Shown here in pieces: positions 37,577 through 53,957 of a DNA stretch of 64,000 nt. The stretch lies in NCBI GenBank assembly GCA_003987725.1, contig RXJH01000011.1, forward strand, positions 64,930 to 128,929. Direction: 5' to 3'. A program made the position numbers and the translations under genes. How positions within the stretch are numbered: the first letter of the stretch is position 1; every line of letters starts with the position of its first letter. A model generated the notes under the pieces. The model worked only from the letters and a program-made list of their open reading frames with translations, had not been told where the DNA came from and made no database searches. Origin of the DNA: Hyphomicrobium sp. Its GTDB lineage: Bacteria > Pseudomonadota > Alphaproteobacteria > Rhizobiales > Hyphomicrobiaceae.

Positions 37577-37652
37577 ACCACCTTCCAGGAACATCCGGCA
37601 TATGAGGCATGACCGAACTCGGCGATGCTGACGTGACCGGGCAACGCATCAT

Positions 37653-37819: not shown

Positions 37820-38430
37820 CTTTACGCCTCGTTCAATGAACGCCTTCCCTCGGCAACTTTATTATTGCTCGACCGGACTTTTGCTTTTGCGCAAATCTTG
37901 GCCTTGGGGAAGAGGACAGTAGGGAAGCGCTGTCGATTAGGCGCAGGTCACGACGCGCTCTTTCAAACGCAGCTTCGAATTTCGCTTTTTTGGAGAGCCG
38001 GCACGCACGGGCGCGTCCAGCGAATTCGCTGACTTTCATCGCGATCCTATTTGAGAAGAGTTAGTCCAACGAGGCACCAGCCAATCTGTCAGCCGGTGCC
38101 CCAATTTCGGAGAAAGTATTCGCTTCCTTCCGACGCGGTCAACGACGGTGAGGTTGACTTGGTTCCAAAGGACATCTGCGCGGACGGGAAACGTCAGCGC
38201 TGCGCATGTTTCCCTGCCGGTACAAAGCCGCAAGCTAACTCGCTCGCAGCTCTCATCACGGATCGCTGTCCCGCAATCCGTCAGCCAGTGGATTGAGCAA
38301 CGCCGGAGGACACGTAGAAGCGCCTATTTCTTGCTAGCGGGGGAACTCGAAGACAGCAGTGCAATTGTAGCCGTCGCAACCCATCGCGCTCGACATCCGC
38401 TTGACCACTATTTAGGGTGCCTCATGGCGA
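37820..38430. other. Intergenic region, no supported gene
   Basis: About 610 bases before the hybrid kinase. Frames of 60-80 codons exist on both strands, but none has a ribosome-binding site or recognisable content. The stretch must include the kinase promoter. Confidence 0.45.
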
Positions 38431-41121
38431 ATGTCGTTTGCGCACGCACCAAGGGAGCCACAGATTTCAGATTTCGCGTTTCTAACGGGTGGTGGCGAAG
38501 CTTCGCTAGTGATAGCCAACTTTGACTGGACGAGCACATCACTCGGCCCAATAGAGCAATGGCCGACGAGCTTAAAATCGTCTCTGGCCCTGATACTTCG
38601 CTCGCCCGTCCCCATCGTCACGCTATGGGGAGAAGACGGCATCATGATTTACAACGATGCCTATTCTGAATTTGCCGGCCAACGTCATCCTGCACTTTTC
38701 GGATCGAAAGTTCGCGAAGGCTGGCCGGAAGTTGCCGACTTCAATGACAACATAATGAAGGTTTGTCTGGCCGGGAGAACGCTCGCTTACCGAGAGTTTC
38801 CACTTACGCTTTATCGGCGCGGGGGGGTGGCGGAAGAAGTATGGCTCAATCTTGATTATTCACCTTTGCTCGACGAGCAAGGACAGCCAGCAGGTGTGAT
38901 GGCAATTGTCGTCGAGATCACCGCCAAAGTTAAAGCAGAACGAGAGCTGCACGGCGAACGCGAAAGTCTTCGCCAGATGTTCAATCAGGCACCGGGTTTC
39001 ATCGCTGCATTGAGCGGGCCTCAACACGTCTTCACGATGGCGAACGAAGCCTATTTGAAACTCGTGGGGAGTCGTCCCATTTTAGGCAAATCCGTTGCCG
39101 ATGCGCTGCCAGAAGTCGAAAGCCAAGGCTTCATCGATTTGTTGGACCGCGTCTTTCATTCGGGTGAACCATTTATCGGTCGTGGGGTTGCGGTCGACCT
39201 TCACGGTCCCGATGGGGCCGTTTCCTCGCACCATCTTGATTTTGTTTACCAGCCAATAATCACCGACGATGGAGCGACCACTGGCATTTTTATCCAGGGG
39301 CACGACGTAACCGAACAGAAGCGCATTGAAGAGGTTCTACGAGCAGAAACTCGGAAGCTGAGCGTCTTGAACCATACTGGCTCGGCGGTTGCGTCTGAGC
39401 TTGACGTCGACAACATCGTACAGATCGTAACGGACGCCTGTACCCAACTCGTTGGAGCGCAGTTTGGTGCCTTCTTCTACAACGTGGTCAACGACAAGGG
39501 CGAGAGTTACATGCTCTATGCTCTATCGGGGGTCGAACCCGCAAATTTTGACAAGTTTCCGATGCCAAGAAATACGGCTGTGTTTGAGCCGACCTTTAGA
39601 GGCGGCGGGGTGGTTCGCTCCGACGATATTCTCAAAGACCCGAGATACGGAAAAAACGATCCGTATCATGGCATGCCGCCGGGGCATCTTCCCGTGCGAA
39701 GCTATCTTGCGGTTCCGGTTACTTCGCGATCTGGTGAAGTTCTCGGCGGTCTCTTCTTCGGCCACGAGTTACCGGCAAAGTTCGTGGTCGAAGATGAAGA
39801 ATTATTGACCGGGATTGCGGGGCAAGCGGCAACCGCGATCGATAATGCGCGGCTATATCAAAAGGTCGAACGGGAGCTTTCCGAGCGGCGTCGCGCTGAA
39901 GAGGCGCTTTTGGTGCTGAATAACACTCTAGAACAACGCGTCGTCGATGAAATTTTTGCCCGATCCAAGGTTGAAGAGCAGCTGAGGCAATCTCAGAAGA
40001 TGGAAGCCGTTGGTCAATTGACCGGCGGCATCGCTCACGATTTCAACAATATGCTTGCGGTCGTTCTGAGTGGCCTCGACCTCCTCAAGAGAAAGCTCGC
40101 GAAGGGCGAAACCGATGTTCAACGCTTCGCTGACGCTGCGATCGAGGGCGCCAAACGGGCCGCTAATCTGACGCAACGTTTGCTCGCATTTTCACGTCAA
40201 CAGCCGCTGGCCCCTGAGCCACTCGACGCAAACAGGTTTGTCTCTCGAATTAGCGAACTTCTGGGCCGGACGTTAGGAGAGATGGTCAGGATCGAGCCTG
40301 TCCTGACGGCGGGGCTTTGGCAGATGAATGCCGATCCCGACCAACTCGAAAATACCCTCATCAATCTCGCCGTCAATGCGCGCGATGCCATGCCTAAAGG
40401 TGGGAAGCTTACGATCGAAACGATGAACGCGGTGGTCGATGATGAGTACGCCGCAGAATATTCGCTGACGCCTGGCCAATATGTCCTTATCGCCGTAACC
40501 GACACGGGCAGCGGAATGACTGCCGAAATCATGGAGAAAGCTTTCGATCCCTTTTACACTACGAAAGAGGTCGGGAAAGGCACTGGTCTAGGTCTCAGTC
40601 AGGTCTACGGATTTGTTCGCCAGTCCGGGGGACACGTCAAGCTCTACTCGGAAGTCGGAGTGGGCACGACGGTGAAGATTTACCTGCCCAGATATTATGG
40701 CGATCCAGGTAGTATTACCCGCGAACGCGAGACGGCGATCGCGCAGCGAGGTTCAACAAAGGAGATAATTTTGGTGGTCGAGGACGACGAACGCGTTCGC
40801 GTACTCTCCGTCGAAGCTCTCAAAGAACTGGGCTACTCTGTGATTGAAGCACCTGGTCCGCTTCAGGCGCTGCAAATTTTGAGTGACGAGCGTGATATTT
40901 CGCTGCTGTTCACCGATGTCGTGATGCCGGATATGTCCGGACGGGAACTCGCAGACCGTGCCCGGCAAAAGCTGCCGTCCTTGAAGGTCCTTTACACGAC
41001 TGGCTATACGCGTAACGCCATTGTCCATAACGGTGTCTTGGACGCCGACACGAGCCTTCTGAGCAAGCCCTATAGAATTGCCGAACTTGCCTCGAAGGTG
41101 CGAAAAATCTTGGACGAATAG
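38431..41121 (+). CDS. Hybrid histidine kinase (PAS-PAS-GAF-HK-REC)
   Basis: 896-aa soluble sensor kinase without membrane segments. Domains in order: PAS about 55-165, PAS about 175-300, GAF about 310-475 (QLVGAQFGAFFYN through AATAIDNARLY), coiled coil, HisKA with phospho-acceptor His536 in GGIAHDFNNML, HATPase with NAVNARDAM-type N box (about 643-653), G1 VTDTGSGM and G2 GKGTGLGLS, and C-terminal receiver with Asp829 in LFTDVVMPD. The HDFNNML box and HK-REC fusion place it in the HWE-distinct HisKA group common in Rhizobiales. It converges with a second hybrid kinase of nearly the same C-terminal half, suggesting a duplication. The start has a poor ribosome-binding site. Confidence 0.92.
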   Translation: MSFAHAPREPQISDFAFLTGGGEASLVIANFDWTSTSLGPIEQWPTSLKSSLALILRSPVPIVTLWGEDGIMIYNDAYSEFAGQRHPALFGSKVREGWPEVADFNDNIMKVCLAGRTLAYREFPLTLYRRGGVAEEVWLNLDYSPLLDEQGQPAGVMAIVVEITAKVKAERELHGERESLRQMFNQAPGFIAALSGPQHVFTMANEAYLKLVGSRPILGKSVADALPEVESQGFIDLLDRVFHSGEPFIGRGVAVDLHGPDGAVSSHHLDFVYQPIITDDGATTGIFIQGHDVTEQKRIEEVLRAETRKLSVLNHTGSAVASELDVDNIVQIVTDACTQLVGAQFGAFFYNVVNDKGESYMLYALSGVEPANFDKFPMPRNTAVFEPTFRGGGVVRSDDILKDPRYGKNDPYHGMPPGHLPVRSYLAVPVTSRSGEVLGGLFFGHELPAKFVVEDEELLTGIAGQAATAIDNARLYQKVERELSERRRAEEALLVLNNTLEQRVVDEIFARSKVEEQLRQSQKMEAVGQLTGGIAHDFNNMLAVVLSGLDLLKRKLAKGETDVQRFADAAIEGAKRAANLTQRLLAFSRQQPLAPEPLDANRFVSRISELLGRTLGEMVRIEPVLTAGLWQMNADPDQLENTLINLAVNARDAMPKGGKLTIETMNAVVDDEYAAEYSLTPGQYVLIAVTDTGSGMTAEIMEKAFDPFYTTKEVGKGTGLGLSQVYGFVRQSGGHVKLYSEVGVGTTVKIYLPRYYGDPGSITRERETAIAQRGSTKEIILVVEDDERVRVLSVEALKELGYSVIEAPGPLQALQILSDERDISLLFTDVVMPDMSGRELADRARQKLPSLKVLYTTGYTRNAIVHNGVLDADTSLLSKPYRIAELASKVRKILDE

Positions 41122-41157
41122 GGGAATCCGCGGCTTCAACACACGCTGGCGCGCAAT

Positions 41158-43185
41158 TCACGCCCCGTCGAGGACACTTCGTATCTTGGATGCTAATTGC
41201 TCAATGGTGAAAGGCTTTTGGAGAAAGTGTGTTCCGCTGTCCAGCACGCTGTTGTGAACGATCGCATTACGCGTGTAGCCGGTGGTGAAAAGAACTTTGA
41301 GGTCAGGCCTTAATTTCAAGGCTCGGTCCGCAAGTTCGCGTCCGTTCATCTCGGGCATGACAACATCAGTGAAGAGAAGAGTCAGCGCGTGGCTCTCTTC
41401 TATCATCCGCACTGCCTCTATCCCGTTCGAAGCTTGCAGTACCGAATAACCAAGCTCGCGAAGGGCATCGACCGCAATTAATCGAACGCGATCTTCATCC
41501 TCGACAACCAAAATAACTTCTTTCGATTTTCCCGCTTCTGGAGGCCGACGCGTCCTTTTCGTTCGGTATGTATCGCTTCCAAAGTGACGTGGCAGATAGA
41601 CTTTTACCGATGTGCCCACGCCTTTCTCGGAGTAAATTTTAACGTGGCCACCGGATTGACGGACGAACCCGAAAACCTGGCTGAGGCCCAGTCCCGTGCC
41701 TTTGCCGACTGGCTTCGTAGTGAAGAAGGGGTCGAACGCCTTTGCGATTGTTTCCGGTGACATGCCGGATCCCGTGTCGGTGACGGCGATCATAACGTAC
41801 TGACCCGCGGAGATTTGATGCTCGGCTGCGTAATCGTCGTCGATGTGCGCATTCGCCGTTTCGATCGTCAACTTTCCTTCGCTGTTCATCGCGTCGCGTC
41901 CATTGACCGACAGATTGAGGAGAGCGCTTTCGAGCTGCCCAGGGTCCGCCTTGATTTTCCAAAGACCCGCCCCGAGAACGGTTTCGATTTTGATCAACTC
42001 TCCAAGCGAACGGTCGAGAAGGCCGGTCAGCTTGGTGACAAGTTTATTGGCATCCAGAGTCTCGGGTGACAGGGGTTGCTGCCGCGAAAATGCGAGCAAT
42101 TGCTGGGTCAGGTCGGCGGCTCGTCTTGCACTCTCGGTCACGCTCTGGAGGTATTGGCCTACATCCGTCTTTCCCCGCGCCAGCTGACGTTCGATAAGCC
42201 CGATGCCAGAAATCACGACCGCTAGCATGTTGTTAAAATCGTGCGCGATGCCGCCGGTCATTTTCCCGAGCGCTTCCATTTTCTGGCTCTGCCGTAACTG
42301 CGCTTCTGCGTTTTCCCGCTCCTCCATCTCGGACTGCAATCGCTTGTTTGCCGTCTCGAGCTCCCGCGTCCTTTCCGCGACTCGCTGCTCGAGCGTCGCA
42401 TTCAAATCCTGCAATGCTCTTTCTGCTTCGAATTGACCGGTCTGATCGCGAAGTATTTTGAGAAAGCCGGGAGTGGCGGGAGGAGATAAGCGAGTCATGA
42501 CACCAACAGCATAGAACCGTTGGCCATCTTTCTTTATCAACCAGCGACGGTCGTCGGCGCTTCCCGTGCTTAGCGCCAGTTGTCGCTCCTTTAGTGGAAC
42601 GCCGGCCTCGCGGTCCTCATCACTAAAAAGAAAGGCAATATCCTGCCCTAACGCCTCTTGTTCGCTCCAGCCAAAGATAGCCGCAGCTCCTGCGCTCCAC
42701 CCTTTGATGAAGCCGTCTTCCTCAATCCGAATAATCGCATAGTCCACTGCACTCGCGAGAACACCCTGGAGATGCGCTTCGCTTTTTCGCAAGGCCTTTT
42801 CGGCGGAGCGTATACGCAGCAGTGCGCGTATCGAAGCAGCGAGTTCGTTCGGGGCAACCGGTTGCGTGAGATAGGAATCGGCGCCTCCTTCAAGTCCCCG
42901 AACTCTATCGCCTTCGGTCGTCAGCGAAGCCGAAATCTGCAATACAAGGATTTCAGGGTGATCGCGCTTGATGATCCGACAAACTTCGAGGCCGTTGATA
43001 TCCGGGAGCTTGACGTCGAGCAGAACGAGTTCCGGCTTTCTCTCTTCGGTAAAAGCAAGCGCTTGTGCTCCGTTGATCGCATCAACCACATCGTACCCAG
43101 CCTGACGAAGGATCCGGTTCTTCGTGTAGCGTCCGACTTCGTTGTCGTCGACGTTCAGTATCAGGGCGGGCGATGACGTGGTCAT
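41158..43185 (-). CDS. Hybrid histidine kinase (REC-PAS-HK-REC), end of stressosome operon
   Basis: 675-aa cytoplasmic kinase. N-terminal receiver with Asp57 (LLDVKLPD), PAS about 135-250, coiled coil, HisKA His315 (GGIAHDFNNML), HATPase with G2 box GKGTGLGLS at 495-503, and a second receiver with Asp607 (LFTDVVMPE). It begins within the stop of the preceding gene (four-base overlap at 43182-43185), the last member of the rsbR-S-T operon. The N-terminal receiver can take phosphate from the 605-aa kinase just upstream, making a relay likely (inference). Confidence 0.92.
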   Translation of the reverse strand: MTTSSPALILNVDDNEVGRYTKNRILRQAGYDVVDAINGAQALAFTEERKPELVLLDVKLPDINGLEVCRIIKRDHPEILVLQISASLTTEGDRVRGLEGGADSYLTQPVAPNELAASIRALLRIRSAEKALRKSEAHLQGVLASAVDYAIIRIEEDGFIKGWSAGAAAIFGWSEQEALGQDIAFLFSDEDREAGVPLKERQLALSTGSADDRRWLIKKDGQRFYAVGVMTRLSPPATPGFLKILRDQTGQFEAERALQDLNATLEQRVAERTRELETANKRLQSEMEERENAEAQLRQSQKMEALGKMTGGIAHDFNNMLAVVISGIGLIERQLARGKTDVGQYLQSVTESARRAADLTQQLLAFSRQQPLSPETLDANKLVTKLTGLLDRSLGELIKIETVLGAGLWKIKADPGQLESALLNLSVNGRDAMNSEGKLTIETANAHIDDDYAAEHQISAGQYVMIAVTDTGSGMSPETIAKAFDPFFTTKPVGKGTGLGLSQVFGFVRQSGGHVKIYSEKGVGTSVKVYLPRHFGSDTYRTKRTRRPPEAGKSKEVILVVEDEDRVRLIAVDALRELGYSVLQASNGIEAVRMIEESHALTLLFTDVVMPEMNGRELADRALKLRPDLKVLFTTGYTRNAIVHNSVLDSGTHFLQKPFTIEQLASKIRSVLDGA

Positions 43186-44999
43186 GGACTGCCTCCAAGA
43201 ATTCGATCAAGCGCTGAAGCAATCGAATGCTGATTGAGGTCACGTTTCGAGAGAAAGCCAACGGCAGCCGCTATCCGCTCTTTGATAATAGTGTCGAAAT
43301 CGGCTGATGACGAAATCAGCACCGGTATATCGCAGGTCGCGGAATCCGCTGTCAGAACCCCGAGAACGGCGTAACCGTCACGGTGCGGCATTTGCAAGTC
43401 AAGGATAATGACATCCGGCTTAAGTTTTCGCGCCATTTCCAAGCATTCGTTGCCGTCATGCGCTTCGCTGACGATGTACGGCCGAGGATTGGACTGGATC
43501 AGCTGAGTAAGGGCGTAGCGAAAAGCCGGATCGTCGTCGACCACGAGTACCGTGGGCTTTTTTTCGTCTTTCGCCGTTTCCAAGATGACCTGAGCCACTG
43601 GCCTCTTGAGCCACTCCGCGCCAGCATCGACATTTGCGCCTTCGATTGCCGGCGGAATGGAAAGTGTAAAAGTCGATCCCGCATCAACCTTACTGGTCAA
43701 CAAGATCTCGCCCTTTAAAACTTCGGCGAGGCGGCGGCAAAGCGACAAGCCGAGGCCTGTCCCTTTGACCAATCTTTGCGTTGGACTATCGATTTGCGAG
43801 AATTCTTCGAAGATGCGGACTTGATCTGCATCGGCGATGCCTATTCCGGTATCTCTGACAGCAAAGAGCAAGCGATTTTCCCGCTTGTCATATGTGACTT
43901 TAACTCGGACTTCGCCGGACAGCGTGAATTTGAGCGCGTTCGATATGAGGTTGCGAATGACCTGAGCGATTTTGCCTTCGTCGCTCACAAGTACCGGAAG
44001 GTCCGCCGGAGGGTCGTCGAAGACGAGTTGAACAATGCCCTCTTTCTGAAGCGGCTTTAGCGCGCCACGTAAGCCACTGAAAAGATCGAGTGCGCTGAAC
44101 GATGAAAGCCTAAGGTCGACGCGGCCAGCCTCCAGCTTTGCAATGTCGAGTAGATCATTGACCATTTCATAGAGGCTTTCGGCCGATCGCTTGATGTAGC
44201 CGACCTGACGTTCCTGCTCGCTGGTGAGTTCTCCGTCGGCGCGTTTGATCAAAAGATCGGACAACGCGAGAATAGAATTGAGCGGTGTGCGAAATTCATG
44301 GCTCATGTGGGATAAAAAGCGTGTCTTAAGCTCGCTCGCCTGGCGAAGCTGCTCCGCTTTTTGTTCGAGCTCTCCGTAGAGAGCAACGACACCACGATTG
44401 GTATCCTCGAGCTCCTGATTGAGCTTTCCGAGCTCGTTCTGACGCTGGCGCACTTCGTCTAAGCTGTGCACGAGCTCTGCGTTTTGCTCGGCAAGAATTG
44501 TCAGTGGCTCATAGTCTCTCCGCTCCTGCGAAAGTGTCGTCGTTATTTTAGCCAGATCGTCTTTGGTGACGGTCTTTTGGCGCTTGGGGAGCGCCTTTCC
44601 AAGTTCGACCAGCGTTCCATGGCCTAGCTTGCTCTCGATCCGGAAATCTTCGACGAGACGCTTTGCACCGAGGATTCCAACCCCCATGCCATGACGCGAC
44701 TCATAACGACCTTCGAGTATCGTCTCTGTATCCCCGATGCCTGGACCGTCATCCTTTACGGCAATGACGAAGAACTGAGGAGAGTCACGCTTCACGTCCA
44801 AGCGGAAGGTCACCTTGCCACGTTTTGCGTATTCAAATGCATTGCGGGCTATTTCTGAAACCGCTGTCGCGACTCTGGTCTGATCTTGTTTCTCGAACCC
44901 AATGAGTTCGGCAATTCGGCGCGCTCGCTGTCGAACGGCAACGACGTCCGCCTCTCTATTTATGTCCATCGTAAGGATCGGCCATGCGGTCATTCGCAA
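43182..44999 (-). CDS. RsbT-like ATPase fused to a hybrid histidine kinase
   Basis: 605-aa protein with two GHKL ATPase domains. Residues 1-140 are an RsbT/anti-sigma-type HATPase: N box EIARNAFEYA at 49-58, KDDGPGIG at 82-89 and HGMGVGILGAKRL at 103-115. A coiled coil (about 155-225) leads to HisKA with His234 in MSHEFRTPL, a second HATPase (N box LISNALKF at 351-358, G1 DTGIGI, G2 GTGLGLS at 413-419) and a C-terminal receiver with Asp534 (IILDLQMPH). In stressosomes RsbT is released from RsbR-RsbS to activate a partner; here an RsbT-like module is built into the kinase itself. Overlaps the previous gene by ten bases and the next by four. Confidence 0.92.
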   Translation of the reverse strand: MRMTAWPILTMDINREADVVAVRQRARRIAELIGFEKQDQTRVATAVSEIARNAFEYAKRGKVTFRLDVKRDSPQFFVIAVKDDGPGIGDTETILEGRYESRHGMGVGILGAKRLVEDFRIESKLGHGTLVELGKALPKRQKTVTKDDLAKITTTLSQERRDYEPLTILAEQNAELVHSLDEVRQRQNELGKLNQELEDTNRGVVALYGELEQKAEQLRQASELKTRFLSHMSHEFRTPLNSILALSDLLIKRADGELTSEQERQVGYIKRSAESLYEMVNDLLDIAKLEAGRVDLRLSSFSALDLFSGLRGALKPLQKEGIVQLVFDDPPADLPVLVSDEGKIAQVIRNLISNALKFTLSGEVRVKVTYDKRENRLLFAVRDTGIGIADADQVRIFEEFSQIDSPTQRLVKGTGLGLSLCRRLAEVLKGEILLTSKVDAGSTFTLSIPPAIEGANVDAGAEWLKRPVAQVILETAKDEKKPTVLVVDDDPAFRYALTQLIQSNPRPYIVSEAHDGNECLEMARKLKPDVIILDLQMPHRDGYAVLGVLTADSATCDIPVLISSSADFDTIIKERIAAAVGFLSKRDLNQHSIASALDRILGGSP

Positions 45000-46021
45000 G
45001 CGCCTTTCGTTACCACGATGGTCGCGTCGTCGCGGCCGCGAGCAAAATCACGGTAGAGAACGGCCGCCAGCATCGCCGGGTGTTGGGTGATAAGTCCTGG
45101 ATAAGTATCGAAGGACCAGCTGCTGCTCAGACCGTCGGAGTGCAAGATGATCTCCGCAGATGCGGGGTCTTCGATGGGGTAGACAATTTCCTGAAAATGT
45201 CTCGCGTTGTGTCCGATCGTGCCGTTGTAGGATAGCATCCTCTTGATTTGTCCGTTGCCGGCAGCAATGACGCCGACAATGTTTCCAACACCGGCATACA
45301 CCACGCGTTTGGAAACCGGCTCTATTCGCGCGATAGCAACAGCTCCGCCGCGTGTCGCTCTCAACCCAGCGTGCAGCGACTTCAATGTTTCCGCAGGACC
45401 GGAGCGCCAGTATTTATCGAATAGCCGGATAGCTTCAGTAGCAACCTTTGCAGCATCGGGACCGTGGCCCAGTCCGTCGACAACCATAACGGTGCGGCTT
45501 GTACTATCGGATCGAATGGCCCAAGCGTCACCGCAAACGGTCTCACCCGGCATTGGAACGCTGACTGCGCCCCAGGCGGGCAGCTGGCCATTTGAACTGC
45601 GCCCATGGGCCATTTTGGCGAGCAAGCGAGATACGATGACTGTCCCATGCCCGCGCTGCGAAAAAATTTCGAATGCGTAAGACTGCCGACGAATCGCACC
45701 AAGGCCGTTACCGGCGGTTCCGGCGGTTGACACACCATCGTCTAAGGAAGAGCGAACATTCGCCATGCCCGGCCCTTTGTCGATGGCGATCAGCTCGACG
45801 CCCTGAGTACCGTTTTGGTCGTCAAATGAGCTTGATAGGATAATTCCGCCGCCGCCATGCTTGACGAGATTTGTTGCAAGCTCGGTCGCGACGATCGCGA
45901 CTCGCCCCGCTGCTTCGTCATCGAAACCGTGCCGGCGCGCCAAATCCACCGATACGCGTCGCGCCTCAGCTACTTGGCTCGACTCTGTAACGGCGACCGG
46001 GGTCATTTTTTCTATTTCCAC
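44990..46021 (-). CDS. RsbX-like phosphatase with N-terminal RsbT-like ATPase domain
   Basis: 343-aa protein. Residues about 8-135 form an anti-sigma-type GHKL ATPase (VAIVATELATNLVKHGGGG N box, AIDKGPGM G1). Residues about 150-340 form a SpoIIE/PP2C-like phosphatase (SVPMPGETVCGDAWAIR, VMVVDGLGHGPDAAKVA, LHSDGL, GRDDATIVV metal-binding Asp residues). RsbX normally dephosphorylates RsbS and RsbR to reset the stressosome; the added ATPase domain is found in Gram-negative versions. It overlaps rsbT by ten bases upstream. Confidence 0.9.
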   Translation of the reverse strand: MEIEKMTPVAVTESSQVAEARRVSVDLARRHGFDDEAAGRVAIVATELATNLVKHGGGGIILSSSFDDQNGTQGVELIAIDKGPGMANVRSSLDDGVSTAGTAGNGLGAIRRQSYAFEIFSQRGHGTVIVSRLLAKMAHGRSSNGQLPAWGAVSVPMPGETVCGDAWAIRSDSTSRTVMVVDGLGHGPDAAKVATEAIRLFDKYWRSGPAETLKSLHAGLRATRGGAVAIARIEPVSKRVVYAGVGNIVGVIAAGNGQIKRMLSYNGTIGHNARHFQEIVYPIEDPASAEIILHSDGLSSSWSFDTYPGLITQHPAMLAAVLYRDFARGRDDATIVVTKGACE

Positions 46022-46416
46022 CGAGTAATAGAAACTCGGGTGCCTTGCCCAAGGTTCGATGCAATTGAAAATTCATTGGCAAGACGCTTGGCGCCACCCA
46101 ATCCCAGGCCCAAGCCGCCACCGGTGGTATAACCGTCAGTAAGCGCTTTTTCGATGTCGGCAATGCCTGGACCTTGGTCCTCGAAAGTTAATCGGACTGC
46201 TTTGCGACCCCCGACGTCGACCCGCTCGATTAAAACGGTTCCACCGCCGCCATAGTCCAAGGTGTTGCGCGCAAGCTCACTGGCCGCGGTCACGATCTTT
46301 GTTTGATCAACCAAAGAAAATCCGGCTTCAACTGCGCGAGCTCGCACATCTTGGCGAACACGTACGACATCATCGCCGGTCAGAATTTGAACAACCTCAC
46401 TCCGCACTACGGTCAT
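46012..46416 (-). CDS. rsbT: RsbT-type serine kinase / switch ATPase
   Basis: 134-aa GHKL kinase that phosphorylates STAS proteins RsbS and RsbR and, when freed, activates downstream signalling. The ATG at 46416 is preferred because it yields the 133-aa family length; it overlaps rsbS by 20 bases. N box ASELARNTLDYGGGG, G1 EDQGPGI, G2-like GGGLGLGLGGAKRL and C-terminal GQGTRVSITRW are all present. Confidence 0.92.
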   Translation of the reverse strand: MTVVRSEVVQILTGDDVVRVRQDVRARAVEAGFSLVDQTKIVTAASELARNTLDYGGGGTVLIERVDVGGRKAVRLTFEDQGPGIADIEKALTDGYTTGGGLGLGLGGAKRLANEFSIASNLGQGTRVSITRWK

Positions 46417-46798
46417 CGAGCTCTCCCCGATCGACCACGTCGGCATCGATGCGCCTTTGTATGAGCGCCATGCCTCGTTCGACGTTCAGTGCCGTTTTCA
46501 CGCCGGTCAACGCCAGTCCCAGCTCCACCAATGTAATTGCAACAGCCGGCCGCATTCCCACGACGACAGTCTCAGCATCAAGCATCCGTGATACGGCAGC
46601 GATGTTATCGAGCATTCTGCCGATGAATGAATCGACGATTTCAAGCGCGGAAATATCGATAAGCACGCCCTTTGAAGCGTTCCCCGCGATCTTGGCCGTC
46701 AGATCCTCTTCGAGTGCCATCGCCAAGCGATCGTGCATATCGACTTGGATCGTCACGAGCAGGGCTGCGCCCATTTTCAGGATTGGTATACGTTCCAT
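46397..46798 (-). CDS. rsbS: RsbS-type STAS stressosome core protein
   Basis: 133-aa single STAS domain. Ser57 in EIVDSFIGRML occupies the position of the phosphorylated Ser59 of Bacillus RsbS; DISALEIVDS is the STAS signature loop. It forms the stressosome core with RsbR and binds RsbT when unphosphorylated. The start lies ten bases downstream of rsbR. Confidence 0.92.
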   Translation of the reverse strand: MERIPILKMGAALLVTIQVDMHDRLAMALEEDLTAKIAGNASKGVLIDISALEIVDSFIGRMLDNIAAVSRMLDAETVVVGMRPAVAITLVELGLALTGVKTALNVERGMALIQRRIDADVVDRGELDDRSAE

Positions 46799-46807
46799 GA
46801 GCCGGCG

Positions 46808-47701
46808 CTACTCCGCGGGCCCATTTTTCTGAACACGGCTCAATGCCTTCACGGACACGACCGTCTTATTGACGCGTGCCAGCGCGAGTGCAAAAGCATC
46901 GGCAAGATTTGCCTTTGAGACCACGTTTAACTCGACGCCGAGGTGCACCATCGTCTGGGCGATCTGAGGACGAATTCCGGAGATAACGCAATCTGCTCCC
47001 ATCAACCGAGCAGCAGCTATCGTTTTAAGAAGATGTTGCGCCGTTAGAGTATCGACGGTCGGGACACCGGTGATGTCGATGATTGCGATTTCCGCTCCCT
47101 GATCGACAATGGCTTGGAGCAAGTTCTCCATGATGGTCTGAGTGCGCTCGCTATCGAGGGTTCCGATAACCGGAAGGGCTAAGATGCCATCCCAGAGCTT
47201 GACGACGGGTGTCGAAAGCTCTGAAATCTCGCGAGTTTGCCGAGCAATGATCTCCTCGCGAGTCTTAGCGAAAACGTCGATCGTATAAAGCCCAAGCTCG
47301 TCGAGCAGCAGCGACGTGTACCAAATGGACGCCGCTTTCGTCGCTGCATCGTCGCTGCTTTTATTTATGGCGTTAAACAGCGGCTGCTTCAGAGAGAATA
47401 CGAAACCAGCTGTCTCGGTTGGAGAGAAACCCTGCACAGCCCGGGAACGCGAAATATCGCCGAGCATCGACCGAAGCGAACTGTAAGAGTTTCCCGATTT
47501 GTCGACGCCACCGTCGGTTCCAACAGATGCTCGCAACTGCGAAAGAAACGTTTTGCACTGAGTATCGAGCTCTGCCTCTTTGATACGTCCAGTTTGCAAT
47601 GCCCCGCCGGCTTTGAGGAGGTTTTGCCAATCGGTCAGGATCGCGTGTTCCTGCCCACCCAGTACTTTGAATAACGTAACGTCGGTTTGGTTCGCCATCA
47701 C
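46808..47701 (-). CDS. rsbR: RsbR-type stressosome sensor
   Basis: 297-aa protein. The N-terminal non-heme globin-like helical domain (about 1-155) is joined by a helix to a C-terminal STAS domain (about 165-285). Ser184 (LDSERTQ) sits where RsbRA has its phosphorylated Thr171, and Thr218 (TVDTLTAQHLL) where it has Thr205; the 34-residue spacing is kept. IDITGVPTVDT is the STAS signature. It is the first gene of the six-gene operon. The sensed signal is unknown. Confidence 0.92.
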   Translation of the reverse strand: MMANQTDVTLFKVLGGQEHAILTDWQNLLKAGGALQTGRIKEAELDTQCKTFLSQLRASVGTDGGVDKSGNSYSSLRSMLGDISRSRAVQGFSPTETAGFVFSLKQPLFNAINKSSDDAATKAASIWYTSLLLDELGLYTIDVFAKTREEIIARQTREISELSTPVVKLWDGILALPVIGTLDSERTQTIMENLLQAIVDQGAEIAIIDITGVPTVDTLTAQHLLKTIAAARLMGADCVISGIRPQIAQTMVHLGVELNVVSKANLADAFALALARVNKTVVSVKALSRVQKNGPAE

Positions 47702-47959
47702 TCCTACTTTCTTTTCTTTCGCGCAGCCGTAAGCAGGCTACTTATCTCGGCTATTTTTGGTAGAAGCGTCCCCCAAAGGCTGGAACAGTTAAGATGGCGA
47801 GCGGCCGACCGGGCAGACAGGCTTAAGTCAGCCTAGGCGACGATCAGAAACGCAAAGCGCTTCCCGTAGTTCCCGGATGGCTGGAATTTTTTGAGAGACA
47901 AGAGGAAGCGAGCACCGGCGTAGAGGCCAGAGCTGTTCGAACGCTCGAAGCCGGCTTGG

Positions 47960-48286
47960 CTATCTGCGAGTAACCTCGACTCGCGTCAGTCCCGAGGCGC
48001 CGATAGCGTTCGCCGCTCCTTCCGATAGATCAATGATGCGCCGCTTCACGAAGGGCCCGCGATCCACCACCGTGACGGTAACGGATCGGCCGTTAGCGAG
48101 GTTTCTCACTCTCAGACGTGTGCCGAATGGGAGGGTAGGATGGGCTGCTACTTTCGCCGCGCACGACAGCTTTCGCCCGCTGGAACTTTGATGATGGCAA
48201 TACCGCGAGGCGATCCCCACTTGACCAGCGACGGCGCACTGCGGAATGAGGATAGCGAATAATGCGGTGAAATGGGTTGTGCGCAT
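47960..48286 (-). CDS. RlpA-like double-psi beta-barrel protein
   Basis: 108-aa exported protein with signal peptide (to about AVAG, residue 21) and a single RlpA-type barrel: GIASRYCHH, LPFGTRLRVRNLANGRSVTVTVVDRGPF and RIIDLSEGAANAIG. It lacks the SPOR domain of full RlpA. The catalytic Asp/Glu of active RlpA (in DRGPF) is present, but the Glu is uncertain. AGAGGAGG precedes the ATG. Confidence 0.87.
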   Translation of the reverse strand: MRTTHFTALFAILIPQCAVAGQVGIASRYCHHQSSSGRKLSCAAKVAAHPTLPFGTRLRVRNLANGRSVTVTVVDRGPFVKRRIIDLSEGAANAIGASGLTRVEVTRR

Positions 48287-48439
48287 CTTAGCCTCCTCTC
48301 TGGCGTTGTCGGGGCTGTAACCAATACGCGATGACGCGGTTGCAATTACTATGTGGTTAAAAACTCAGTGAGCGACGTTTTTGGGTCACGCCAGACGCTG
48401 CGCGCCATGGAGACCGCTCCCCGAGAGACAAGATGCCCT

Positions 48440-48868
48440 TTAGGGACTTGTCTGACGCTCTATAAGGCGAAAGAAGGCGTTGAGGCGCGCCCTGTCATGA
48501 TAGACGTCCATGGTCGCGATCTGCATATTCCGAAAGGTAATGATCTGGCGCAGATTAGCTGTGTAACTTGTGCCTATCTGTCTGTCTTTGAGATAGTATA
48601 ACGCTCGTGCACGGCCAATGCCGGAATGAAAAGTGAAGCTGTCGATGAACGACATGCACTCCGCTTTTTGCATGATATTCTTTAGGAAGGAACGCATCGC
48701 ATCCTTGCCCTCGATGATTAGCGGGGCCCCAATAAAATCCTCGGCGTTGCGCTTGAAATAAAAGTCGTCAGTGTAAGTCTCAAGAACAGCCTCGACGTCA
48801 CCTGCGCTGAAGGCACGGTGAGCTTCGTCAGCTATGGCTCTTGCGGTTTCGCAATTCAGCAACGGCAA
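48440..48868 (-). CDS. NTF2-like (SnoaL-like) protein
   Basis: 142-aa single-domain protein with the NTF2-like pattern: helix AIADEAHRAFSAGDVEAVLETYTDDFYF, then IIEGKDAMRSFLKNIM and beta strands ending in an Arg-rich helix. Family members are small isomerases or ligand-binding proteins; no catalytic residues can be assigned. The opposite-strand frame here is a shadow. Confidence 0.75.
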   Translation of the reverse strand: MPLLNCETARAIADEAHRAFSAGDVEAVLETYTDDFYFKRNAEDFIGAPLIIEGKDAMRSFLKNIMQKAECMSFIDSFTFHSGIGRARALYYLKDRQIGTSYTANLRQIITFRNMQIATMDVYHDRARLNAFFRLIERQTSP

Positions 48869-49408
48869 CGTTCCAACCTACAGCGATCATGCGCTCGCCT
48901 TTCAACCCAAACGGTGCCGTCGCTCGATCCCGTCGCAAGCTTATTCGAGACGAGGTGCGGTGCCTTGCGGCCGATCGCATTTTTGGCAAAGCGCCGGCGC
49001 GGCTGGAGCCGCATCAGCGTGTTCGCTCATTCTGGTCATGATCGGTGCGCCGGATCAAGTGGTGCGGCCGGAGGCACCGGCCAGGAAGAAGAAGCGTCAG
49101 CAGACGGAATCCCCGTCCCCAAGGTGCAGCAACGGTTTGGGAGTGGTTACGGCGCCTGCGTCGCGGCGAGGTTTCTCTCGTCGAAGTGAAGCGCAGCCGC
49201 AGGGAACGGCACGATTGAAATGCCGAACCCCTTGACGCTGCCCGGCACTTCTCTCACCCCGCTGCGATCGGCATTGGCTTAGCCAACTGTTGCTTCTTGC
49301 AGGCGAGGCCGTAAAGTTTTGTTGTGATGAAGGCGCCGTAGGCAACGGATACGACGCCTTCCTTCTTTCCAGCCGGGAGTCTATCCCTTCCTGCGTGGCC
49401 ACACCGTC
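48869..49408. other. Intergenic region, no confident gene
   Basis: About 540 bases. Plus-strand frames up to about 130 codons exist, but their translations are Arg/Ser/Pro-rich without family features. An imperfect hairpin AAGGCG...CGCCTT followed by CCTTCTTT lies near 49330-49365 and could end the minus-strand 49409 gene. Confidence 0.45.
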
Positions 49409-49690
49409 TCAATCCATCGACTTCTGTTTGGTCGGGTCCGGCGTACGATTTGATGTACCTTCAGGCGTCTTAGCCGCGTCCGTTCCGGCTGCGCCGGTCG
49501 TGCCAGCGCCCGCCCCGCGGTCGGGCGATTCTGTGCCCGGGGTCCGGTCAGAAGTCTTACCACCGGGTTGGTTCACTACCGCGCCGTTGTCGTTCATTTT
49601 GGTTTTGTCCGTCGTGTTATCGGCGTACGCCGGACCCGCCACCGTCACCGCTAACAATCCCGCGATCGAATAGAGAATGGAAACGCGCAT
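49409..49690 (-). CDS. Small exported low-complexity protein, 93 aa
   Basis: Signal peptide (MRVSILYSIAGLLAVTVAGPAYA) followed by an Asp/Thr/Gly/Pro-rich, probably disordered mature part. AAGGAGG lies seven bases before the ATG, a near-perfect ribosome-binding site. No family recognised; the tail composition resembles that of the 34027 protein. Confidence 0.68.
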   Translation of the reverse strand: MRVSILYSIAGLLAVTVAGPAYADNTTDKTKMNDNGAVVNQPGGKTSDRTPGTESPDRGAGAGTTGAAGTDAAKTPEGTSNRTPDPTKQKSMD

Positions 49691-49891
49691 GCATTCCTCC
49701 TTGATTTTTATCTGGCAAGCGTTCTGCCTGCTTTGACGAAAATGCTCTGGGATCCTGGTTGTTCCGTATGGTTGTGCGACCGGTTACTTCTGCGAAACGC
49801 AGGCGATCTCCAGCGCTCTTCGATCTCCGGAGTCGATCCGCTTGTGGGCGTCGGGAGGTCAGGACACTGATTTTGGGTTTTGGTCGTGATG

Positions 49892-50323
49892 TCAGGAATG
49901 GGGCTGGCTGGCGCAATCGCCGAGGCGCTTGCCGCTTTGACGCTCTGTCATCGTCATGTTCTTACCGCCCATTTTCATGTCGAAAGCTCCGGCAAAGCGT
50001 TCGCGAAACAGTTCGAACTTGGCCGAAGCAACGGCCTGATTGTGCCCCTCGCAAATGAGGTCGAAAGTGAGTTCCCCGCCACTTTCCTTAATGTTCGAGG
50101 CTGGACAGCGGATCAGGGGATTGTTCTCGCTCAGCACCACGATGCCGTGCGTGCCTGTAGCAGTGATGCAGACCTTGGCAGTCTTTTGTGCGCTCATGTC
50201 TTCGATGTGCGGCAGCTCCAGCCGCATCTGCACCTCGTATTCGCCAGGCTGTAAGTTGCTGTCTTGGCCAGCCAGCGCGGCGGCAGGCATAGCGAGTAGA
50301 GCAAGAAGCCAAAGTGTTCGCAT
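49892..50323 (-). CDS. DUF3617-type exported protein
   Basis: 143-aa periplasmic protein with signal peptide ending ALAG. The LQPGEYEVQMRLELP opening, paired Cys (KVCITA, IRCPASN, LICEGHN, GDCAS) and the late MTMTERQSGKRLGDC segment fit the DUF3617 family, whose function is unknown. Confidence 0.8.
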   Translation of the reverse strand: MRTLWLLALLAMPAAALAGQDSNLQPGEYEVQMRLELPHIEDMSAQKTAKVCITATGTHGIVVLSENNPLIRCPASNIKESGGELTFDLICEGHNQAVASAKFELFRERFAGAFDMKMGGKNMTMTERQSGKRLGDCASQPHS

Positions 50324-50494
50324 TGAGCCCCCAGTGTTTAGGTCGAGCGTCTAAGAGCACGAGGATCAAGCCGGCGCGCTCCGTTTCTTGCTGTTGAATT
50401 CGCTCCGGGCGCTTAAGTTTGAGAGCAAGAATCGAGGTGTGACCTCGGCCTCGGGCGGATAAAATTCGCTTTGTTTAGAGACCGAGAGCCCTTG

Positions 50495-51637
50495 ATGTCA
50501 GATCATAAATTTTACGCGAACACCGTTCGGTCGGTTGCTCCTGGCCAGCGGATAGTTCTTTCGTCTCGAAGACACACGCGCCCGGCCCATCCGATGACTG
50601 CTCGGTTGGGCGTGCCCATGGCTCGCCGCGCTTTCATGGCGGGCGGTTCCGCGAGCATTTTGACGGCAGGCTTACCTGCAACGGCGAAACCGTCCGCAAC
50701 ATTGTTGGTGTCGCATCCTGCATTCGCCCAGCACAACCCAGGGCCATTCATCCCCGAGCGGCCCGCGCGCGAGATCGCGATCATGGAAGCCTTGGCCGCG
50801 CCCGCATTCGCGGCTCTTGTGCGCCACGAGGCTCCGCTACATGGCGCGCTCAGAGAAGCCATCCTGCGCGTGCATGCGCCGGAATATTTCGACATGCTCA
50901 ACGGGTACGCGAGCGATACACCCAACCTTCCGCATGCATTCGATCTCGACACTGTTCTTGGAGATCGAAGTTGGGACGCGGCGTTACTTGCCGTTAGCGC
51001 GGGATTGCACGCCGTCGATTGCGTATTTGACAAGGACGGCGGGATCCGCAACGCCTTTTGCCCTGTCCGGCCGCCGGGCCACCATGCGGAAGCGGCCCGA
51101 GCGATGGGCTTTTGCTTCTTCTCCAATGTCGCCATTGCCGCGAAATACGCGTGCGCAGCGCACGGCGCGGAACGCGTTGCGGTCATCGACTTCGATGTTC
51201 ATCACGGCAACGGTACTCAGAGCGCGTTTTGGGATGAGAAGAACCTGTTCTACGGTTCGACGCATGAGTTGCCGCTTTTCCCGGGAACCGGCGCCGTGTC
51301 AGAGACCGGCGTTCGCAATGTTTTCAACGCGCCGCTCAAGGCCGGGGACGGCACCGTGCAATTTCAGCTTGCCATGACCGAGCGAATTCTGCCTGCACTG
51401 GATGACTTCCGACCCGACCTCATTCTTATCTCTGCTGGCTTCGATGCGCACGAGGGCGACCCGCTCGCACACATTCGCTTGCAGGAGGCAGACTTCACCT
51501 GGATTACGATGAAGGTCATGGAGATCGCAGACAAACACTGCGACGACCGCATCGTCTCGATGCTCGAAGGTGGTTATGTGCTCAAGGATCTCGCTCATTC
51601 GGCGTCCGCGCATGTTTCTCAGTTGATGCGCGTTTAG
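50495..51637 (+). CDS. Histone deacetylase-family hydrolase, possible Tat export
   Basis: Zn-dependent deacetylase of the arginase/HDAC fold, about 380 aa. Motifs: RPPGHHAE (active-site His pair), IDFDVHHGNGTQ (Zn ligands Asp and His), AGFDAHEGDPL (third Zn ligand Asp) and LEGGYVL. Bacterial members deacetylate small molecules or polyamines. Residues about 42-66 read MARRAFMAGGSASILTAG, a twin-arginine-like signal ahead of the enzyme, so export is possible though unusual. Start uncertain: ATG at 50495 is used, and ATGs at 50594 or 50618 would put the twin Arg at the N-terminus. Confidence 0.88.
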   Translation: MSDHKFYANTVRSVAPGQRIVLSSRRHTRPAHPMTARLGVPMARRAFMAGGSASILTAGLPATAKPSATLLVSHPAFAQHNPGPFIPERPAREIAIMEALAAPAFAALVRHEAPLHGALREAILRVHAPEYFDMLNGYASDTPNLPHAFDLDTVLGDRSWDAALLAVSAGLHAVDCVFDKDGGIRNAFCPVRPPGHHAEAARAMGFCFFSNVAIAAKYACAAHGAERVAVIDFDVHHGNGTQSAFWDEKNLFYGSTHELPLFPGTGAVSETGVRNVFNAPLKAGDGTVQFQLAMTERILPALDDFRPDLILISAGFDAHEGDPLAHIRLQEADFTWITMKVMEIADKHCDDRIVSMLEGGYVLKDLAHSASAHVSQLMRV

Positions 51638-51860
51638 GATCAATCATGTGCGACGTCCGCTTTTGTATATCAGCGGCTATTCCGACGAGCAGGCCTACGT
51701 CCGACGTGATGACCGGTTCTGGGATTGAGCGGCCTTCTGCGTCGAAGGCGATCGAGGAGAGAAAACTCGAATAGCGAAGCCTCAACTCGTCCGTCGATAA
51801 TCCGACGGAGCTAGCGGTTGTGCTGAATTGTGGTGCCTCAGGAGGGGCCGTACATCGCTA
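51582..51860 (-). pseudogene. Possible gene fragment interrupted at the island boundary
   Basis: A minus-strand frame open from a stop near 51860 to 51582 reads ...VGLSTDELRLRYSSFLSSIA, then a plausible folded stretch ending RTSHMIDP. No good start codon or ribosome-binding site is visible, and it runs through the island boundary repeat into the end of the deacetylase gene. It may be a remnant; it may also be chance. Confidence 0.22.
51831..51846. repeat. Left attachment-site repeat (copy of tRNA-Leu 3' end)
   Basis: 16-base sequence TGGTGCCTCAGGAGGG, identical to the 3' end (CCA, acceptor and T stem) of the tRNA-Leu gene at 53872-53887. It marks the far boundary of a 2.04-kb inserted segment. 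Confidence 0.82.
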
Positions 51861-51873
51861 TTGAAATCAATCG

Positions 51874-51894
51874 GTTAGGATAAAAGTTAGGATA
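51874..51894. repeat. Paired GTTAGGATA repeats near left end of island
   Basis: Two direct copies of GTTAGGATA at 51874-51882 and 51886-51894, 28-48 bases inside the left attachment repeat. The same 9-mer recurs near the right end. They look like arm-type sites for a tyrosine recombinase or accessory factor (inference). Confidence 0.6.
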
Positions 51895-51895
51895 G

Positions 51896-51942
51896 AATAC
51901 CGCCCGTACGACCCCGTATCGTCTCGCGGAGCGGGCGGTATT
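51896..51942 (-). terminator. Inverted repeat downstream of the 290-aa gene
   Basis: 11-bp perfect stem (AATACCGCCCG / CGGGCGGTATT) with a 25-base loop, 40 bases after the stop of the minus-strand island gene. It could be that gene's terminator, though the loop is long and the T-tract short. Confidence 0.45.
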
Positions 51943-51981
51943 TCGTGATGAAAAATAGAGCTGTTTCGCGTTCCTTGTCGA

Positions 51982-52854
51982 TCACTCCGCCTCGCCATCG
52001 TCAATTGGGATTGATCGATGTATCTCCGTGATTACGTAGACCTTGGGACGGTCATCGACGAACTGAACAATCGCATCAACCACAAACGCTGTCTGGAAAG
52101 GGTTCACCTCACCAGAGACTATCTGATGCTTCAGGTAGCCTAAACTCTCTGGAAACCAGAGGGGCAGAGCCTTCCCGGTGATCGAAGATATAATCCCTTT
52201 GTCTACAGTGCGCCCGGCGGCCTTTCCTGCCCTCCGGTTGGCAGCCTCTATAATGAGGATCACGTCAGTCCTTTTTTCCGAGCGCACGGCCGGCCGCCCA
52301 TCGGGACGTTCAAGCAGTGCCGTAGGACCCTCTTGAACCTGGTGACTTATGGCCCGCGAGGCCCTGTCGATTTCGCTCTGATTGTAATCGTAGGAGATCA
52401 CTGTTGATCGATCGCCGTCGTGACGTTCGAATTTGGCGTGACTGATCCTTAGGGAAGAAGCAGACCGTCCGACAAGCGGCTTCAAGAATTGCGCAATCGC
52501 CGCTGCGTCATCAATGGTAACGCCAGCAGATACCTGAGCGGGGTTGGGTGTCTTTCCCGCGAACGCGCTCAATGCATCGGTTAGGCGCTTTACGAAATCT
52601 GCAACGGTTATTGTGTTTCCGGCCGTCGTGACCAACGCGCCCAATATGACGGTATAAGGGATCAGCTCCAGCTCGATGCATTTAGTTTTTAGCTCAGTGA
52701 CGTACAATTTGTTTGTTTGATCGTCGCCGAAGTTGTTTTCGTAATAGGTCGCTAACCCGGCAAAACTGTCGGTTAATTCCGAGAACTCGAATTTTTCATT
52801 CGGCTCCAAAACAATTACGACGCTATCCGTTGCGTCACCGGTATCGCGCGCCAT
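51982..52854 (-). CDS. Island-borne hypothetical protein, 290 aa
   Basis: I do not recognise a named family. The N-terminal about 100 residues (VVIVLEPNEKFEFSELTDSF, then LYVTELKTKCIELELIP and a hydrophobic helix TVILGALVTT) resemble a domain seen in other mobile-element proteins where beta strands lead into a helical segment ('xxVxEixxGSixxxLiP' style). The C-terminal about 130 residues are mixed alpha/beta with a charged end. GGGGG precedes the ATG. It diverges from the PAPS-reductase-like gene across 88 bases, inside the tRNA-bounded island. Codon use looks less G/C-biased than in flanking genes. Confidence 0.75.
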   Translation of the reverse strand: MARDTGDATDSVVIVLEPNEKFEFSELTDSFAGLATYYENNFGDDQTNKLYVTELKTKCIELELIPYTVILGALVTTAGNTITVADFVKRLTDALSAFAGKTPNPAQVSAGVTIDDAAAIAQFLKPLVGRSASSLRISHAKFERHDGDRSTVISYDYNQSEIDRASRAISHQVQEGPTALLERPDGRPAVRSEKRTDVILIIEAANRRAGKAAGRTVDKGIISSITGKALPLWFPESLGYLKHQIVSGEVNPFQTAFVVDAIVQFVDDRPKVYVITEIHRSIPIDDGEAE

Positions 52855-52942
52855 TTAGAAAAACCCCCATTCTGAAAAACGGTATTGCTTTTTTTTGGCC
52901 TTTTACAAATAGACTTGTTCCCCTCGATTTTCGGGAACGACA

Positions 52943-53743
52943 ATGTCCACTACAAAACTTCGTATTCTTTCGCTGGGCGCGGGCGTCCAGTCAACGACGC
53001 TTGCATTGATGGCGGCTCATGGCGAGGTCGGGCCGATGCCAGATGCCGCGATCTTCGCCGATACAGGTGACGAGCCAGATGCTGTCTACGACCACCTTCG
53101 ATGGTTGATGTCGCCGAACGTGCTGCCGTTTCCCGTCCATATCACCTCAACTGGTCGCCTAAGTGAGAAGCTGTTCCAGGGCGATGACGAAGCGCGAGTT
53201 CCGTTCCATGTTGGGGCGGGCGGTTTATCCAAGCGACAATGCACTCGAAACTATAAGCTGCGCCCGATCCGCCGAAAGGTGCGCAAGCTTTTGGGTGTTG
53301 GTCCAAAGGGAAGGATCGCGGCCGGCGCTGTTGAGATTTGGGTCGGTATTTCGCTCGACGAGGCGATCCGCATAAAGCCGTCGGGTCGGGATTACCTGAC
53401 CAATCGATGGCCGTTGATCGAGAAACGGATCAGACGCACTGATTGCATGCGGTGGCTGGAGCGGCGCGGGTACGACGTTCCTCCGAAGTCTTCCTGCGTT
53501 TACTGCCCTTACCGCAGCGATGCGCAATGGCGCGATCTTCGCGATAGCGACCCGGCCGGCTGGCAGCGAGCGGTAGAGGTTGATCGGAGGCTCCGCGAGC
53601 CGGATCAGGTCGCCCGTTTCAGAGGTCAACTTTATGCGCATCGCTCATGTAAGCCGCTCGACCAAGTTGATCTGTCCACCCCTGAGGATCACGGCCAACT
53701 CAATCTGTTTTTGAATGAGTGTGAGGGCATGTGCGGAGTTTGA
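52943..53743 (+). CDS. Island-borne PAPS-reductase-like PP-loop protein
   Basis: 266-aa adenine-nucleotide alpha-hydrolase-fold protein. N-terminal PP-loop SLGAGVQSTTLALMAAHGE, FADTGDEPDAVYDHL, the QCTRNYKLRPIRRKVR block, then SSCVYCPYRSDAQW with a CxxC pair and a Cys-containing tail. This is the PAPS-reductase/DndC-like relative common in phages and genomic islands, where substrates (DNA, tRNA or nucleotides) are mostly unknown. True sulfate-assimilation CysH has a different C-terminal motif, so a metabolic role is unlikely. Confidence 0.88.
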   Translation: MSTTKLRILSLGAGVQSTTLALMAAHGEVGPMPDAAIFADTGDEPDAVYDHLRWLMSPNVLPFPVHITSTGRLSEKLFQGDDEARVPFHVGAGGLSKRQCTRNYKLRPIRRKVRKLLGVGPKGRIAAGAVEIWVGISLDEAIRIKPSGRDYLTNRWPLIEKRIRRTDCMRWLERRGYDVPPKSSCVYCPYRSDAQWRDLRDSDPAGWQRAVEVDRRLREPDQVARFRGQLYAHRSCKPLDQVDLSTPEDHGQLNLFLNECEGMCGV

Positions 53744-53816
53744 TCCTCATACAACGATCAGTCGTTGGAGGGGTTGTAGTCCGGATTGGAAAACAAAAAT
53801 CACGTCGAAATAAGCG

Positions 53817-53850
53817 GTTAGGATAATCGTCGAAAAATACCTATCCTAAC
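53817..53850. repeat. GTTAGGATA inverted pair near right end of island
   Basis: GTTAGGATA at 53817-53825 and its reverse complement TATCCTAAC at 53842-53850. The first copy extends to an 11-base match, CGGTTAGGATA, with the left-end copy at 51872-51882. They lie 22-55 bases inside the tRNA-side boundary. They could be recombinase arm sites or a hairpin ending the PAPS-like transcript. Confidence 0.6.
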
Positions 53851-53871
53851 TCATTGATTTTATTATATTTC

Positions 53872-53957
53872 TGGTGCCTCAGGAGGGACTCGAACCCCCA
53901 CACCCGATGGATAGCAGATTTTGAGTCTGCCGCGTCTACCGTTCCGCCACTGAGGCA
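53872..53957 (-). tRNA. tRNA-Leu (CAA)
   Basis: 86-base cloverleaf including encoded CCA. Acceptor stem TGCCTCA/TGAGGCA, anticodon stem GCAGA/TCTGC with loop CTCAAAA giving anticodon CAA, a long variable arm as expected for leucine, and T-arm GGGGGTTCGAGTCCCTC. Its last 16 bases (53872-53887) are the integration target repeated at 51831. Confidence 0.95.

Follow-up and report, generated by a model that had tools for sequence, protein, structure and literature searches.

An integrase-less 2-kb unit with putative attachment ends at the tRNA-Leu(CAA) gene of Hyphomicrobium sp.

Organisation of the tRNA-Leu(CAA) locus

The stretch of 64,000 nucleotides of Hyphomicrobium sp. that was analysed (assembly GCA_003987725.1, contig RXJH01000011.1, positions 64,930 to 128,929 of the forward strand; hereafter the window) was found to contain a tRNA-Leu(CAA) gene at 53872-53956 on the minus strand, predicted by ARAGORN and in agreement with Rfam tRNA, and beside it a 2,041-bp unit bordered by a direct repeat of the 3′ end of this gene. 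The 16-bp core TGGTGCCTCAGGAGGG was found at the tRNA 3′ end at 53872-53887 and, identical at 16 of 16 positions and also read on the plus strand, at the distal end of the unit at 51831-51846. The initial annotation had pointed to this 16-base repeat, and the repeat was confirmed as exact; the two copies were the only exact ones in the whole 4.25-Mb genome, which contained one further match with 2 mismatches elsewhere, and the reversed control gave 0. At up to 3 mismatches the core matched twice in the window against a shuffle mean of 0.39, and at least two such matches were present in 6 of 100 window shuffles. By sequence, the unit was found to be flanked as cis-mobilizable elements (CIMEs) are flanked by attL and attR, with a direct repeat of the end of the target gene.

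Between the cores, two divergent open reading frames (ORFs) were found 88 bp apart, the one at 51982-52854 on the minus strand coding for a 290-aa protein of the phrog_9226 family (function unknown), and the one at 52943-53743 on the plus strand coding for a 266-aa PP-loop protein of the phrog_424 family, which resembles 3′-phosphoadenosine-5′-phosphosulfate (PAPS) reductases. That only two divergent genes and no integrase are present, as first annotated, was borne out by the confirmed ORFs and by the absence of any match to PF00589, the tyrosine-integrase family, in the unit. Neither protein was assigned to a family in the Pfam scan, and the 290-aa protein matched no NCBIfam family. The genome contained 11 PF00589 matches, 10 of them above the cut-off, and none was found from 37.6 kb to 53.9 kb of the window; serine integrases were not searched genome-wide. 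Two genes without a Pfam family and without a PF00589 match correspond to the gene content of CIMEs, which carry no integrase, relaxase or transfer genes; an integrase of its own, as found in autonomous islands, integrative and conjugative elements (ICEs) and prophages, was not found in the unit. A hairpin downstream of the 290-aa gene was not significant (z -1.5), and the promoter and terminator scan remained below shuffle level.

Repeats in the two ends

The 9-mer GTTAGGATA was found twice inside each end of the unit and outside both stop codons, with copies at 51874-51882 and 51886-51894 on the plus strand in the left end, followed by copies at 53817-53825 on the plus strand and 53842-53850 on the minus strand in the right end. 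The position of both pairs outside the stop codons argues against promoter sites. The window contained these four copies alone, every one inside the two ends, and the genome contained eight, four of them in the ends of the unit, against five for the reversed control. When a 10-mer was searched at one mismatch, the same four places of the window were returned, with 0.73 matches expected, and no 9-mer reached four copies in any of 4,936 pairs of stretches drawn at random from the window with the lengths of the two ends.

Short repeats beside the core, termed arm sites, are described as being bound by tyrosine integrases (PMC2951348, PMC11963761). The four repeats of GTTAGGATA look like arm-type sites of a tyrosine-integrase attP, in which repeats flank the core, and the unit seems to retain attachment ends without the enzyme. 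The predicted joint of a circle, made of the right end, one core and the left end, would measure about 279 bp. An imperfect inverted repeat of 24 nt was also present between the ends, its left arm at 51859-51882 being 83% complementary to its right arm at 53842-53865; it was not significant alone and was 1 of 27 inverted pairs in these 5 kb.

Variation of the site among relatives

Eighteen tRNA-Leu(CAA) loci of relatives, about 14-19 kb each, were compared; 20 regions had been fetched, and the non-tRNA-Leu loci L080 and L081 were excluded from the count. In two of the 18 (genomes G015 and G018) the similarity to the window stopped at about 37.6 kb and picked up again at the tRNA gene, and on the far side it stopped short of the tRNA core by 9 bp in G015 and by 29 bp in G018. 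G015 was about 91% identical to the window in the aligned pieces. The stretch missing at the tRNA gene of both was found to be about 37,628-53,871, that is 16.2 kb and not 2 kb alone. The tRNA-Leu(CAA) site is variable, over a segment of 16.2 kb. The initial annotation had proposed a 2-kb island and a comparison of the tRNA flank in relatives; a tRNA-targeted unit of 2,041 bp and empty sites in two relatives were indeed found, but no relative displayed the 2-kb step alone.

Matches to the window at 36.55 kb were found to stop 119-440 bp from the tRNA core in G020, G001 and G003, and the flanks of the 13 other loci were different, more distant or not resolved. The tRNA gene of G014 (L070) was present without a core within 2 mismatches, and GTTAGGATA was found in none of the 20 fetched regions. 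Neither the 290-aa gene nor the 266-aa gene was found in the 21 other same-genus genomes searched, some of which are only 71-88% complete. In G006 a second core-like copy with 2 mismatches was present (L077:4487), 13.4 kb from its tRNA-Leu(CAA) gene, and possibly marks a different occupant of the same tRNA site.

The remaining 14.2 kb of the variable segment, at 37628-51830 to the left of the unit and likewise absent at the tRNA gene of G015 and G018, contained a PAS/GAF sensor kinase gene, SpoIIE- and RsbRD-type stressosome genes and a histone-deacetylase-like gene. No PF00589 match was found in this block, of whose ORFs only part was scanned against Pfam, and no core copy within 2 mismatches was found at its outer (left) junction. 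This outer junction was close to the tRNA-adjacent position. At the inner border, the plus-strand stretch 51768-51847 was 78% identical to G000:C12:29301-29381, an 80-bp stretch that includes part of the core and is separated by about 220 bp from a degenerate tyrosine-integrase fragment (29301-29860; L080, L240). With low confidence, 51768-51847 may be the scar of an earlier element's attachment end, the integrase of that element having been lost; if so, the locus would be a tandem array in which the 2-kb unit arrived later.

The 266-aa PP-loop protein

The 266-aa protein was found to match phrog_424 (E 2.7e-43) and, more weakly, SspD of PADLOC (E 4.8e-15, residues 8-217). The partner genes that accompany SspD/DndC in phosphorothioation were not found adjacent, and the 290-aa gene was without a PADLOC match. 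The protein stayed below the gathering score of the Pfam family PAPS_reduct (PF01507), which was passed by its relative in HTVC034P (28.3 vs 22.5 bits). Searches with tblastn gave relatives in 52 phage records and 195 plasmid records, and a genome search at E 1e-30 gave them in 11 of 397 genomes of the order, this genome counted. The protein kept 53 of the 58 columns that were invariant in ten homologues, including the PP-loop variant and six cysteines. A toxin B subunit name for the protein (22-23 residues, E 0.06-0.7) was rejected as a chance match.

Eleven plasmid loci, taken from the top of the lists of relatives, were examined, and an ArdC-type gene was found upstream of the PP-loop homologue in nine of them; seven of these genes were directly adjacent, one was separated by a 363-bp gap (H29) and one by a single gene (H38). 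The ArdC identity was confirmed by Pfam in seven of the nine and taken from the record annotation (ArdC family) in two (H22, H37). These nine loci are not independent, several of the plasmids being related and four belonging to replicon cluster 490. The two loci without an upstream ardC were H39 and H34, the latter with the PP-loop homologue fused to a partial C5-methyltransferase. At the three phage loci examined for the PP-loop gene, no ardC neighbour was annotated. On the Mesorhizobium plasmid MesoLjLa5 (L286:3485-4804), a phrog_424-type PP-loop protein was present behind a partial C5 cytosine methyltransferase domain, and the fusion gene was near primase and methyltransferase genes.

ArdC has been described as enabling plasmid R388 to get past the restriction of a new host (PMC7213743). 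Because of the ardC genes upstream in nine of the 11 plasmid loci, our best guess is that the PP-loop protein would serve as DNA-protection cargo, by anti-restriction or by DNA modification. The link of PAPS-reductase-like proteins to DNA modification and conflict, as it had been put at the outset, gains indirect support from this neighbourhood and from the one C5-methyltransferase fusion. The recurring ardC neighbourhood makes the PP-loop family phrog_424 of phages and plasmids a concrete candidate for DNA protection. The terms 'PAPS' and 'phosphosulfate' were absent from the main text of a study of plasmid leading regions (PMC11541004).

The 290-aa protein

All 11 members of the alignment of the 290-aa protein (A2) matched phrog_9226. 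Homologues were found in 11 of the 397 genomes of the order, this genome counted, and in one plasmid record at 25% identity; a search with the single protein gave no confirmed relative in the collections genome_contigs and viral_contigs and none in phage records. Pfam names returned for single members of the family (best E 0.0014) were rejected as chance matches. In G228 (L228:2198-9280) about 7.05 kb at a tRNA-Thr gene was found to be bounded by an exact 30-bp repeat, with the 290-aa homologue as the last gene before the distal repeat, a resolvase, and a DUF6538/PF00589 integrase that scored 27.4 bits (cut-off 27.1). In G394 the homologue was present 4.7 kb from a tRNA-Leu(GAG) gene with an integrase in between, and in G040 an ArdC gene was about 4 kb away. 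No tRNA-end repeat was found beside the tRNA-Gly gene near the homologue in G064, and no comparable context was recognised at the other loci of the family. In L081, L231 and L232 the homologues were near ORFs resembling one kind of insertion-sequence transposase, which we take to be of the IS1595 type.

Among the ORFs at the other loci of the 290-aa family (ten genomic, one on a plasmid) none matched the PP-loop protein, and the 290-aa protein had no match in 29 other PP-loop loci (3.0-8.9 kb each). Neither gene being found at the loci of the other, the pair is not a conserved module among the loci compared, and the recurrence of the two genes together, which the initial annotation had proposed to look for, was not found. 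Conjugative plasmids carried homologues of the cargo, and other homologues were next to tRNA genes that have an integrase nearby.

Proposed origin of the unit

The initial annotation had left the choice between a deletion remnant and an element mobilised in trans. This choice can now be narrowed, as the four identical 9-mers suggest that both ends were kept. It seems rather likely that the 2,041-bp unit, which lacks an integrase and is bounded by attL- and attR-like cores, was integrated site-specifically and moved by the integrase of another element. The core at the tRNA 3′ end would be attR-like and the core at 51831 attL-like, and the four repeats of GTTAGGATA would serve as arm-type sites to which the N-terminal domain of a foreign tyrosine integrase binds. 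Such an enzyme would have inserted the unit in trans, or else in cis together with a partner that has disappeared since. Through the same enzyme, recombination between the two cores could release the unit as a circle with the joint of about 279 bp described above. The unit would have been placed on the tRNA side of the apparently older 14.2-kb insertion, giving a tandem array, and its cargo would be a PP-loop enzyme guarding DNA on entry together with a phage or island protein of unknown role. The unit is thus seen as probably hitch-hiking on the enzyme of another mobile element. If small units keep full attachment ends and move by the integrases of others, surveys that rely on an integrase to call islands overlook them, and a testable explanation becomes available for short segments at tRNA genes that are so far unexplained.

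Several results weigh against this explanation. No element with both the motif and an integrase was found in the genomes of the order, in genome_contigs or in viral_contigs. The paired motif was present in one of the 397 genomes of the order, which is this genome alone, and the motif together with the core was found in 0 stretches of genome_contigs, where the exact pattern would miss a one-base variant. In viral_contigs the pair pattern gave 34 matches that are apparently unrelated; all were judged from the surrounding sequence, which looked like coding DNA or simple tandem repeats, and nothing was recognised as an integrase in the gene lists obtained for three of them, the other 31 being judged by sequence alone. 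The motif was picked only once it had been noticed; at least four copies of the 10-mer at one mismatch were present in 2 of 100 window shuffles, and some 9-mer was present at least four times in 3 of 5,000 dinucleotide shuffles of the ends. The remaining four genomic copies of GTTAGGATA were single, with none near a PF00589 match. The tRNA-Thr island of G228 (L228), which has its own integrase and was used as a control, had at most two copies of any 9-mer in its ends, so the four-repeat signature is not general. No tRNA-end repeat was present at the tRNA-Leu(GAG) locus of G394, no relative among the loci compared had the 14.2-kb block without the 2-kb unit, and the 266-aa protein deviated at 5 of the 58 invariant columns, one of them directly after the C-x2-C pair. 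A looser arm pattern was also searched in viral_contigs; it gave at least 120 stretches, was judged to be at chance level and was rejected, as was its sole two-copy match among the 80 stretches listed, which was a repeat.

The same unit could be pictured, more boldly and with considerable doubt, as a minimal gene-bearing counterpart of the miniature inverted-repeat transposable elements (MITEs) that hitch-hikes on tyrosine-integrase islands. Within 2 kb it would combine the cores and four arm sites with two genes for DNA protection, and it would be maintained as a functional, non-autonomous unit moved in trans by the integrase of an unrelated helper, not a product of decay.

Decay is the starting point of the first alternative, by which a larger island with an integrase would have shrunk by deletion to its ends and two genes and become an immobile, dead remnant. 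This course is unlikely, although it is to be taken seriously, a route from an ICE or an integrative and mobilizable element (IME) to an att-flanked CIME being published (PMC7563491, PMC5704250). The adjoining 14.2-kb block, also without a PF00589 match and bordering the possible attachment-end scar, makes decay plausible at this very place, and the same-genus genomes, the genomes of the order and genome_contigs yielded no further copy of the unit. A remnant of this kind is at odds, however, with the exact cores and exact 9-mers at both ends and with the compact spacing of the genes; no fragment of any further gene was recognised inside the unit, and both genes had open frames and homologues.

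An arrival of the whole 16.2 kb as one island, with the core at 51831 as an inherited inner junction, is improbable. It would account for the absence of all 16.2 kb from G015 and G018, where similarity stops 9 and 29 bp before the core, and acquisition of a whole composite has been described as possible (PMC5704250). The outer left end, however, was without a core within 2 mismatches, the 9-mers flank the inner pair only, and the 2-kb unit would still have formed earlier in the same way. A chance repeat beside ordinary chromosomal genes next to a tRNA gene, to which the single exact 16-bp pair could point, is highly implausible, the tRNA-end core being unique in 4.25 Mb with repeats paired at both ends and the genes not being found in the 21 other genomes of the genus.

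Comparison with known elements

Integrase-less islands are already published, and the present unit joins a known kind, being best filed as a CIME-like or 'hitcher' element. Its apparent distinction is an end pair that looks complete beside the target gene, with no driver found.

CIMEs are described as att-flanked and without recombination and transfer genes, the classical ones measuring 1.2-13 kb with cargo and occurring in tandem arrays (PMC7563491, PMC5704250). The unit was found to resemble those described for Streptococcus salivarius (PMC7563491) in its att flanks, in the lack of integrase and transfer genes, in its cargo, in its size and in a possible array at the 3′ end of a target gene. 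It differs from the S. salivarius CIMEs in the bacterial group and in that no intact driver element was found here. In the tandem arrays of that study, CIMEs were always farthest from the target gene (PMC7563491), whereas the present unit adjoins its target; the same source also cites CIMEs that occur singly at a tRNA-Lys gene in S. agalactiae. CIMEs are defined by an origin from ICEs or IMEs and by transfer through accretion with an incoming element, whereas no parent element was found for the present unit.

The microcin H47 island of E. coli (PMC3191183) is likewise described as lying between direct repeats and having no recombination genes of its own. Its excision and integration were detected experimentally and must draw on functions supplied from elsewhere in the cell, whereas any movement of the present unit is predicted from its sequence; that island is also 13 kb long with extensive imperfect repeats, and its abstract mentions no tRNA target. 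The tandem ssrA islands of Dehalococcoides (PMC3146451), which were proposed to be cis-mobilizable, are similarly reported as repeat-bounded and without integration genes, but they target the tmRNA gene and have neighbours with serine recombinases, unlike the unit described here.

Among the hitchers reviewed in PMC11389934, MITEs and clusters of attC sites lacking integrases (CALINs) are described as carrying recombination sites without the enzyme, as in the present unit. MITEs are said there to contain no protein-coding genes and to use transposases, whereas CALINs depend on integron integrases and attC sites. Comparable in the layout of the ends is the attP of ICEMlSymR7A (PMC11963761), for which a motif TGKTGGTATC, an integrase of its own (IntS) and an excision factor are reported, unlike in the present unit; this attP measures 283 bp with five short arm sites, against about 279 bp with four 9-bp repeats in the predicted joint.

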